From the NCBI GenBank assembly GCA_029007725.1, contig JAQXIJ010000059.1:1-64000 (forward strand): DNA of 64,000 nt, read 5' to 3'. This stretch comes from Bacillota bacterium. Its GTDB lineage: Bacteria; Bacillota; Clostridia; UBA1381. The notes below the pieces were generated by a model, which saw nothing but the letters and a program-made list of their open reading frames with translations, was not told the DNA's origin and ran no database searches. The position numbers and the translations under genes are program-made. Shown here in pieces: positions 2,791 to 6,903 of this stretch (its first letter is position 1; each line of letters opens with the position of its first letter).

Positions 2791-2856
2791 TGTCGAACGA
2801 ATTGCAGAAAACAACAACTGTTTTTGACAAAAAATATGCAATGTATCTGCTATAAT
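2791..2856 (+). promoter_or_regulatory. spoIIG-type promoter with two Spo0A boxes
   Basis: TTGACA (2824-2829) and TATAAT (2851-2856) are both perfect hexamers but are 21 bp apart, too far for ordinary sigma-A use. A perfect 0A box TGTCGAA lies at 2791-2797. A second box, TGTCAAA on the minus strand, covers 2823-2829 and overlaps the -35. The Bacillus subtilis spoIIG promoter is known to have an over-long spacer and Spo0A~P sites over the -35. The match in sequence and in downstream genes makes Spo0A control a strong inference. Confidence 0.8.
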
Positions 2857-2890
2857 TGCAGTAAGAGGTTGCGGTGAGGTGGTTTTACTT

Positions 2891-3634
2891 ATGACGGTTT
2901 ACCCAGATGTCCTTTTTTTTATCAATTTTGTGTATGATGCCGAAATTATGCTGGTTATTCTGAAACTGTTCTCAAAAAAAATCCCATTACTGCGGCTCGT
3001 TTTATCCATTTGCCTCGGAGGTCTGTGGAGCACGTGTGTTTTTGTCCCTTATTTCAGACTGCTCTATCTGCCTCCGATGAGGTTGCTGGTGCCGCTTGCG
3101 ATGACGGCTGTAGTGTTTTTTCCATGTGAAAAGAGCGAGCTTTTTAAAGCTTGGGCGGCATTTTTAGCAATATCATTTGTTTTTGGCGGAGCAGTAAATT
3201 TTTTTAAGTTAAATGTCGCCGGCGGTGCGATGCTTCTTCTACCGCTGTATATATGTATTGTTATTTTAAGAGGCACTTTAAAAAAAAGACATTTTGAGAC
3301 CGTCATAGTATACAGAGGAAAGAGCGTTTCAGTAAAGGGTTTCTGGGACAGCGGAAACACTGCGTCATATATGGGACATCCACTCATTTTGGCTAGCTCA
3401 GACGTATTTTGCAGACTTTTTGGAGAACATTTTATGATAGAAAGCATCTCAGAATGGGTAGAGGCAAAGGATATACGTTTTGTTCCATACAAATCTCTTG
3501 GCGGTGCTGGAATAATAACCGGAATAAAAGCAGATTATGTAATTATCAATAAAAAAATTTATTATGATGTAATAGTGGGATGCTGCGGTGATAAGTTATC
3601 CGAAGAAGTTATCCTTAACGGAAGCATGATGTAG
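2891..3634 (+). CDS. spoIIGA: Sigma-E processing peptidase SpoIIGA
   Basis: SpoIIGA is the mother-cell septum aspartic protease that cleaves the pro-sequence of sigma-E during sporulation. The N-terminal half (to about residue 130) is a series of hydrophobic segments. The soluble C-terminal part carries the catalytic aspartate in FWDSGN (D at about residue 153). Length (about 247) is somewhat shorter than the Bacillus protein. I prefer the ATG at 2891, eight bases after GAGGTGG; a GTG at 2879 would overlap that ribosome binding site. It lies immediately before sigE, the conserved spoIIG operon order. Confidence 0.93.
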
Positions 3635-3650: not shown

Positions 3651-4352
3651 ATGCTGACTCTGATTAACAACTTGAAGGAAAAAATTGCGAGTATCTGTAC
3701 CTCTGAGGAGGTGTTATACATCGGCGGTCAGGATGTGCTTCCGCCACCACTTGAAAAAGAAGAGGAAGAAAGGCTGTTGAAGCATATTTGTGACAGCTGT
3801 GAGGTCAGAACGACTCTGATTGAACATAATCTGCGCTTGGTTGTATATATTGCAAGAAAGTTTGAAAATACCGGAATAAATGTTGAGGATTTAATCTCAA
3901 TCGGCACAATTGGTCTTATAAAAGCTATAAACACCTTCAAACCTGATAAAAATATCAAGCTCGCTACATACGCTTCGCGATGCATCGAAAACGAAATTCT
4001 GATGTTTCTGCGAAAAAATCAAAATGCGCGTGCGGAGGTCTCAATTGATGAACCGCTTAATGTGGATTGGGATGGGAATGAACTTCTGCTTTCTGACATA
4101 CTGGGAACTGATAACGACGTTACATATCAAAATATTGAAAAAGAGGTCGACATCAAGCTGCTTTCAATTGCCATGCAGAAACTTACAAATCGCGAGAAGC
4201 AGATTATGGAACTTCGCTTCGGGCTTATGGGAAAAAAAGAAAAAACTCAAAAAGAGGTTGCCGATATGCTCGGAATATCTCAGTCATATATTTCAAGGCT
4301 CGAAAAAAGAATAATAAAAAGATTAAAAAAGGAAATAATGAGAATGAATTAG
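3651..4352 (+). CDS. sigE: RNA polymerase sporulation sigma factor SigE (pro-sigma-E)
   Basis: Sigma-E directs early mother-cell transcription after asymmetric division. The 233-residue protein has the N-terminal pro-sequence and the YIGG region (about 24-27) where SpoIIGA cleaves. Region 2 includes [14 protein letters not shown] and [28 protein letters not shown] follows, and region 4 ends with [20 protein letters not shown]. These blocks are near-identical to what I recall of Bacillus SigE. It starts 16 bp after spoIIGA with AAAGGA upstream. In many spore formers sigG follows directly; it does not here. Confidence 0.97.
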
Positions 4353-4393: not shown

Positions 4394-4831
4394 TTGGACA
4401 AAAAAGACTATAAAAAGCTTGTTGACAGGAAAAGCCCTGCGTCGAAGCTTTTTACCGACTGCATAAAAGCGTTTTTGTTCGGAGGCGCAATCTGCACAAT
4501 AGGAGAACTGTTTCAAAAGCTATACGAGCCTTTGGGAATGACCAAGGAAATTACCGGTGGAGCTGTTTCGGCAACAATGGTGTTTTTAGGTGTGTTGCTT
4601 ACCGGGCTTAATATTTATCCCAAACTTGCAAAGCACGCAGGTGCAGGAACAATAGTTCCGATCACCGGTTTTGCAAATTCTGTCGCATCCCCGGCAATTG
4701 AGGCTAGAACCGAAGGATTGGTAATGGGAGTCGGAGCAAAGCTGTTTACGATAGCCGGTCCCGTAATAGTCTATGCTGTGGTTGCGTCTTTTGCAGCAGG
4801 ATTATGGTACTGGATGCTTTCACTCATGTGA
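4394..4831 (+). CDS. spoVAC: Stage V sporulation protein AC (SpoVAC)
   Basis: SpoVAC is an inner spore-membrane protein of the SpoVA channel involved in dipicolinic acid movement and germination. The 145-residue sequence has the family's SPASKLFTDCIKAFLFGGAIC start, hydrophobic segments at about 25-45, 55-75 and 115-140, and the central HAGAGTIVPITGFANS block. Translation starts at TTG 4394 behind AAAGGA; the nearby ATG at 4384 is out of frame. No spoVAD or spoVAE neighbour is present. The 3' end overlaps the convergent DUF4830 gene by 12 bp. Confidence 0.9.
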   Translation: MDKKDYKKLVDRKSPASKLFTDCIKAFLFGGAICTIGELFQKLYEPLGMTKEITGGAVSATMVFLGVLLTGLNIYPKLAKHAGAGTIVPITGFANSVASPAIEARTEGLVMGVGAKLFTIAGPVIVYAVVASFAAGLWYWMLSLM

Positions 4832-5679: not shown

Positions 5680-6903
5680 ATGGCAAAAAGAAGAAGAGAA
5701 AAAATGAGCGAAGGGAAAAAGAATATCATAGCTAGTTTAATTCAGGAATATGACATTAAAACAGCAGAAGATATTCAGGAAGCGTTAAAGGATCTCCTTG
5801 GCGGAACTATCCAGGAAATGATGGAAGCTGAGCTTGACGAACATCTTGGTTACGAAGAATATGAGCGCAGCGATAATACCGATTACAGAAACGGAGTAAA
5901 ACACAAAACTTTACGCAGTTCCTATGGCGAAATACCTATTGATGTCCCTCAGGACCGCGACGGAGATTTTGAACCTCAAATCGTACCAAAACGCAAGAAA
6001 GACATATCAGCAATTGAACAGAAAATCATCGCAATGTCAGCAAAAGGTATGACAACAAGACAGATTTCAGATATTGTTGAGGATATTTATGGATTTGAGG
6101 TAAGTGAAAGTATGGTAACAGCAGTCACTAATAAAATACTTCCTCAAATCGAAGAATGGCAGCAAAGACCATTATCTGCTGTATATCCGATTGTTTTCAT
6201 AGATGCAATACATTTTTCGGTTCGTGATGAACACATCGTTAAAAAGATAGCAGCATACATAATTCTCGGGATAAACGACGAAGGTAAAAAAGAGGTTCTT
6301 AGCATAACAATCGGAGAAAATGAAAGTGCAAAATACTGGCTTGGAGTACTTAATGACCTGAAAAACCGTGGTGTGCAGGATATACTGATTTTATGTGCAG
6401 ATGGTCTTTCTGGCATAAAAGAATCCATAACTGCCGCATTTCCGAACACTGAATATCAGCGTTGTATTGTTCATCAGGTGAGAAATACCTTGAGATATGT
6501 TGCCGAAAAAGATAAAAAAGCGTTTGCAAATGACTTAAAAAGCATATATCACGCACCAAATGAAGAAATCGGATATGAACGTATGCAGGCTGTAACAGAA
6601 AAATGGCAGGACAGATATCCGAATGCCATGAAGCGTTGGGAAGAAAATTGGGATGTAATATCACCAATGTTCAAATTTTCAGCAGATGTGAGAAAGGTTA
6701 TGTACACCACCAATGCGATAGAAAGTCTTAATAGTGCGCTGCGCCGTTTAAACAGTCAACGAAGCGTATTTCCCAGCGACACAGCACTTTTAAAGGCACT
6801 GTATCTGGCATCTTTCGAAGCAACGAAAAAATGGACTATGCCGCTTCGTAACTGGGGTAAGGTGTATGGAGAACTGTCAATCATGTACGACGGCAGACTT
6901 TGA
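5680..6903 (+). CDS. IS256-family transposase (Mutator-like DDE)
   Basis: This full-length 407-residue transposase moves the surrounding element by a copy-out mechanism known for the family. The DDE residues are visible: D175 in VFIDAIHF, D241 in CADGLSG and E348 in TNAIESLN. The family motif CIVHQVRN lies at about 262-269. The N-terminal region has ELDEHLGYEEYER, typical of the DNA-binding part. AGGAGG (5666-5671) precedes the ATG. There are no internal stops or frameshifts, so the protein is probably active. Confidence 0.96.
   Translation: MAKRRREKMSEGKKNIIASLIQEYDIKTAEDIQEALKDLLGGTIQEMMEAELDEHLGYEEYERSDNTDYRNGVKHKTLRSSYGEIPIDVPQDRDGDFEPQIVPKRKKDISAIEQKIIAMSAKGMTTRQISDIVEDIYGFEVSESMVTAVTNKILPQIEEWQQRPLSAVYPIVFIDAIHFSVRDEHIVKKIAAYIILGINDEGKKEVLSITIGENESAKYWLGVLNDLKNRGVQDILILCADGLSGIKESITAAFPNTEYQRCIVHQVRNTLRYVAEKDKKAFANDLKSIYHAPNEEIGYERMQAVTEKWQDRYPNAMKRWEENWDVISPMFKFSADVRKVMYTTNAIESLNSALRRLNSQRSVFPSDTALLKALYLASFEATKKWTMPLRNWGKVYGELSIMYDGRL

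Follow-up and report, generated by a model that had tools for sequence, protein, structure and literature searches.

Why would a promoter keep two perfect hexamers and hold them 21 bp apart? The DNA ahead of spoIIGA and sigE in this Clostridia genome raises the question of whether its TTGACA serves the polymerase as a -35 element or Spo0A as a binding site. By the window we mean the whole stretch of 64,000 nucleotides that was analysed; positions follow its numbering, and columns in relatives are counted relative to the -35 hexamer. We consider it very probable, judging from sequence comparison, that this is a Spo0A-dependent sigma-A promoter of spoIIGA-sigE, where Spo0A~P would occupy a distal 0A box and the box over the -35 and aid opening by the sigma-A polymerase.

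Promoter elements and genes at the locus

The distal 0A box, TGTCGAA, lies on the forward strand at 2791–2797 (columns -33 to -27) with no mismatch. A promoter-proximal box on the reverse strand at 2823–2829, TGTCAAA (TTTGACA on the top strand), has one mismatch to TGTCGAA and overlaps the -35-like hexamer TTGACA (2824–2829), an exact match on the forward strand. The 21-bp spacer (2830–2850) ends in the extended -10 triplet TGC (2848–2850) and is followed by TATAAT (2851–2856), an exact -10 hexamer conserved in relatives; all three are on the forward strand, and the distance from the -10 predicts a transcription start at 2863 on that strand. A sequence-only reading of this DNA had described perfect -35 and -10 hexamers 21 bp apart together with two 0A boxes, and each is present where it was placed. 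Between the two boxes, both on the reverse strand, are a decayed middle 0A box (2810–2816), which reads AACAACA with three mismatches to the order pattern TTCGACA, and a possible weak tandem half-site (2813–2819), 10 bp 5′ of the -35 box, in which C2818 alone is kept of the conserved CA. A -35 element at 17 bp was also looked for within the spacer and rejected, the sequence there being CAAAAA.

The identification as a spoIIG promoter is borne out by the genes directly downstream. spoIIGA, encoding the pro-sigma-E processing protease (2891–3634, forward strand), was called by Pfam profile search (PF03419, 130.9 bits, E 7.7e-38); it also matched NCBIfam TIGR02854 with 83.5 bits (E 1.6e-23), under the model cut-off of 209.55. 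sigE, the sporulation sigma factor gene (3651–4352, forward strand), matched TIGR02835 with 387 bits, above the cut-off. With the ribosome-binding site GAGGTGG ahead of it (2876–2882, forward strand, 8 bp 5′), ATG 2891 is the more likely start of spoIIGA on sequence grounds, and is favoured over GTG 2879.

The next gene after sigE is spoVAC (4394–4831; TIGR02838, 169.4 bits), which takes the usual sigG slot; sigG itself lies on a separate contig of the source genome (1.65 Mb, 97.6% complete) and scores above its model cut-off. A motif check of 80 named loci found a sigG-like gene 3′ of sigE in 66 and none in 11, and 3 loci were too short. A little downstream of the sigE region the window carries an IS256-family transposase (5680–6903, 415 bits). 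Double-length SpoIIGA frames of 521–523 and 655 amino acids occur in three class genomes of family f156 (G502, G528 and G570) and in G341, and would appear to be fusions or long extensions. Of the nearest named relatives, several are MAGs from rumen or rabbit, which agrees with the earlier guess of a probable gut Clostridium, the word gut being partly inferred from names.

Spacer length and 0A boxes in relatives

Upstream regions of SpoIIGA were compared in three circles: 83 from the order, 69 from the rest of the class and 70 from the rest of the phylum, 222 in total. The order circle consists of 86 SpoIIGA places minus G053 and G048, in which the match starts late in the protein, and the weak G022:C14. 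For the class circle 70 non-order upstreams were chosen of 114 and one, of 64 bases only, was removed; the phylum circle holds 70 upstreams from 343 genomes with a match, namely the best 30 plus 40, mostly one per family, among the places listed. Being related, these sequences are not independent of each other.

Allowing TTGACA and TATAAT no more than a single mismatch between them, we found a spacing of 21 bp in 52 of 83 order, 29 of 69 class and 44 of 70 phylum upstreams, and each of the other spacings tried (12 to 30 bp) in 0 to 4. When two mismatches were allowed, 21 bp rose to 76/83, 51/69 and 54/70, the top spacing other than 21 bp reaching 18, 14 and 10, respectively. Alignment in relatives, which the sequence-only reading had proposed as a check, thus came out in its favor: both the long spacer and the 0A box that covers the -35 have been kept well beyond close kin. 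A set of 80 named loci, of which 78 could be placed and 2 were dropped, was also compared. The 21-bp spacing was the better fit in 48 (Paenibacillus, Alicyclobacillus, Brevibacillus, Sutcliffiella and most Clostridia) and the 22-bp spacing in 22 (mostly Bacillus, Neobacillus, Rossellomorea and kin), and 8 fitted neither. The B. subtilis spoIIG spacer of 22 bp is the textbook case; since the named loci mostly fit 21 bp, it looks like the minority. On these sequences, 21 bp looks like the common state and 22 bp like a minority variant, mainly of Bacillaceae. The Bacillus promoter had been called unusual; the spacer here is indeed long, but 21 bp is what most relatives have.

The spoIIE promoters of the same order resemble this one in their 21-bp spacing and in having 0A boxes in similar places; they differ in the gene served and in a -35 hexamer that is often ATGACA or TTTACA. 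Among 31 spoIIE upstreams (the best 30 of the order and the one from the source genome), 26 show 21 bp with at most one mismatch, including the genome’s own, and other spacings occur 0 to 2 times. The own spoIIE promoter reads TTTACA-21-TATAAT, with ACGACA upstream. The exact pattern TTGACA-N21-TATAAT was searched in 95 order genomes, and among 150 sites listed at least 40 stand before spoIIGA and at least 17 before spoIIE, lower bounds both, as the assignment used 73 SpoIIGA and 41 SpoIIE places among those listed. The genome’s own SpoIIE (L241, L240) matched the family model in two parts only, 9–458 and 558–763, both under the cut-off; the SpoIIE proteins of genus members resemble it in having a divergent or shortened middle.

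Expectation-maximisation on the 222 upstreams, seeded from the -10 only, recovered a TGTCGAA-like element at -33, a TTCGACA-like element at -14, CA at -6/-5, TTTGACA from -1 to 5, a T run at 8–12 and TATAAT. Twenty-six upstreams score below 8 on the resulting matrix and have no convincing site; these were probably misplaced or are built differently, which makes the design common and not universal. Boxes were then counted, with at most two mismatches, in the 196 sites scoring at least 8. The reverse box at -1, over the -35, is present in 69 of 74 order sequences outside the genus, 50 of 57 in the class and 32 of 58 in the phylum. The forward box at -33 (55/74, 11/57 and under 15% of 58) and the reverse box at -14 (58/74, 16/57 and 3/58) are distributed differently. 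Judged by these counts, all three circles have the box over the -35 as their core, and the two boxes farther upstream are a trait of this order and its neighbors. The forward -33 box, being so rare across the phylum, is not the Bacillus arrangement. The close match to Bacillus spoIIG that had been claimed is therefore kept in part: the two promoters have in common a long spacer and a box over the -35, but not the upstream forward box seen here or the 22-bp spacing seen in Bacillus. Named Paenibacillus carry a reverse box near the -33 position.

Within the window’s own genus (n = 7), all seven sequences retain an intact distal forward box and -35 box, at 0–1 mismatch, and the middle box is found in two at up to two mismatches. 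Since most order relatives have the middle box and it is degenerate here, the window represents a reduced form. A tandem forward TGTCAAA 11 bp after the distal box is present in five of the seven genus members, and one member has it with two mismatches; in the window the corresponding second forward box has four and was rejected. Tandem 0A boxes are spaced by 10 bp, and the CA at -6/-5 sits exactly 10 bp 5′ of the CA at 4/5. Over the 222 upstreams column -6 is C in 74% and column -5 is A in 50%; the phylum set gives 79% for both.

The -35-like hexamer and its readings

When the hexamer columns were masked during site placement, the consensus-base frequencies at hexamer positions 1–6 in the 222 upstreams are 0.57, 0.60, 0.74, 0.86, 0.87 and 0.90, and the ACA end of the 0A box overlapping the -35 is its most conserved part. 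As a control, every exact TATAAT in 1.14 Mb of sequence was checked for an accompanying hexamer with five or more of six matches, and the hits were thinned to unlike sites. Sites with 17-bp spacing (n = 42) gave 0.98, 0.95, 0.95, 0.98, 0.74 and 0.81 per position, and those with 21 bp (n = 96) gave 0.67, 0.95, 0.92, 0.99, 0.97 and 0.99. The hexamer is thus conserved in a manner that suggests a 0A box (TGTCG on the other strand, i.e., CGACA or TGACA), unlike the -35 of 17-bp promoters. Bases G2, C4 and G5 of the 0A box are known contacts, according to the available portion of the C. difficile study (PMC3485338).

Would these data also fit a true -35, with a polymerase that spans 21 bp and a Spo0A that merely assists or blocks nearby? 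The hexamer is exact in the window, the order upstreams counted above often match both consensus hexamers, and T is still the commonest base at positions 1–2. However, mismatches at positions 1–2 versus 4–6 number 3 versus 20 at 17 bp and 37 versus 5 at 21 bp in the thinned sets (Fisher p 2e-9), and 30 versus 117 and 86 versus 48 when four of six matches suffice (p 6e-14), p values that treat related sequences as more independent than they are. Named Bacilli, moreover, often have TAGACA, GTGACA or CCGACA at this place. The flanking TT at +9,+10 speaks in the same direction: in promoters with 22-bp spacing it stays with the hexamer (95% and 95%, n = 22) and does not follow the -10, and it is therefore part of the box block. 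We regard the true -35 as unlikely. The hexamer had been described as perfect, but one conserved position by position as a 0A box is no evidence of a strong -35. In the window the TT columns correspond to 2833–2834; TT is kept in 45 of 58 phylum sequences and absent from all seven of the window’s genus.

A somewhat less probable alternative still is an extended -10 promoter, in which TGC TATAAT would give basal sigma-A activity and the boxes would be modulators only. It draws on the TGn found in all seven genus members and on the rarity with which TGn and the middle box occur together in spoIIG promoters of the order (TGn in 24 of 81, middle box in 60, both in 5). TGn is found, however, in just 17 of 74 sequences from the rest of the order, 6 of 57 from the class and 7 of 58 from the phylum; the genus has retained its distal and -35 boxes nearly unchanged; and in spoIIE the association is the opposite, with both in 11 of 30. 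A trade-off between TGn and the middle box was considered as a rule and rejected: it is concentrated in a few genera (TGn in 10/10 of g24, 7/7 of g1 and 4/5 of g6) and reversed in spoIIE, so no rule is claimed. The extended -10 of the window could nevertheless allow some Spo0A-independent basal transcription. That the whole resemblance is fortuitous, the operon being driven from elsewhere, we hold to be scarcely credible. Taken singly, the pieces would be expected by chance in 64 kb (TGTCGAA occurs 9 times against 9.6 expected, and TTGACA-N21-TATAAT with at most one mismatch twice against 0.76), and conservation was taken as the evidence instead. Against chance stand that conservation, the 66-bp composite, which has one exact match in the window and was matched at up to three mismatches in 2 of 100 shuffles, and the matrix score. 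With the window’s genus left out (189 sites, i.e., the 196 minus 7), the matrix gives the promoter 28.1 bits and the runner-up in the 64 kb 8.3.

The preferred reading, a Spo0A-dependent promoter, may be extended, and here we are tentative, putting the extension slightly below an even chance. Phylum-wide, selection on the -35-like element of spoIIG and spoIIE would act on its role as a Spo0A site and hardly on any -35 function. A rigid CA-N6-GACA-N3-TT block (-6 to +10) would serve as a ruler, kept at 21 bp from the -10, with Spo0A replacing the -35; the 22 bp of Bacillaceae would be the exception, and lineages would swap upstream boxes and the extended -10 around a fixed core.

Proposed mechanism and known systems

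The source genome carries Spo0A, whose residues 145–257 (113) align without gaps to the DNA-binding domain structures 1FC3 and 1LQ1; the recognition stretch is almost identical to the solved domain, with SRVERAIRH intact, and the same 0A box is therefore expected to be read. A 359-amino-acid frame of the genome is presumably RpoD/SigA, the primary sigma factor. In the proposed mechanism, Spo0A~P would bind the distal forward box as well as the one over the -35 and, from the latter, contact the sigma-A RNA polymerase. A hexamer at 21 bp from the -10 would be out of ordinary reach for this polymerase, and the contact would drive the open complex at TATAAT. As a result of such Spo0A-driven opening, pro-sigma-E and its protease would be made only at high Spo0A~P. 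Spo0A binding, sigma-A use, activation and the start site are what we infer for this promoter; the degenerate middle box and tandem half-site are points that weaken the reading. In the B. subtilis model, Spo0A repositions the polymerase relative to the -35.

This is an ordinary, well-conserved spoIIG promoter of a known kind. It lies upstream of spoIIGA-sigE, and the spoIIG/spoIIE features of Spo0A-activated, long-spacer promoters were found: a spacer within 21–22 bp, a 0A box over the -35, and, in the genome, Spo0A together with a presumed primary sigma factor. Any novelty would lie in the comparison: a 21-bp spacing as the usual state, and a hexamer conserved as a Spo0A site. A search of open-licence papers gave no direct report of polymerase repositioning or of spoIIG promoter conservation across the phylum; this speaks only weakly for novelty. 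The comparison extends the textbook Bacillus sporulation switch to uncultured gut Clostridia and identifies three parts that evolution holds fixed, namely the -10, the Spo0A box that covers the -35 and the 21 bp separating them. Predictions for mutants follow directly from it (changes in TT against changes in ACA of the hexamer; spacers of 17, 21 or 22 bp), and it supplies a pattern with which Spo0A-activated sigma-A promoters can be sought in genomes where no experiments exist.

Among known systems, the C. difficile spoIIGA promoter, likened here by its published description, shares a promoter assigned to SigA in the portion available of PMC7438776, and upstream DNA bound by Spo0A. It differs in low affinity: as far as the available portion of PMC3485338 goes, the Spo0A DNA-binding domain bound that DNA weakly in vitro, only above 200 nM. 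Named Bacilli have the CA at -6,-5, ten bp 5′ of the box’s own CA, but their -10 is TATACT. B. subtilis spoIIG, to which B. safensis and B. altitudinis are the nearest named examples here, has the same sigE operon, long spacer and 0A box over the -35; it differs from the window in its 22 bp and in the place and orientation of its distal box. The proposed mode, the best reading of our analysis, is the known B. subtilis mode, and no finding here favors another.
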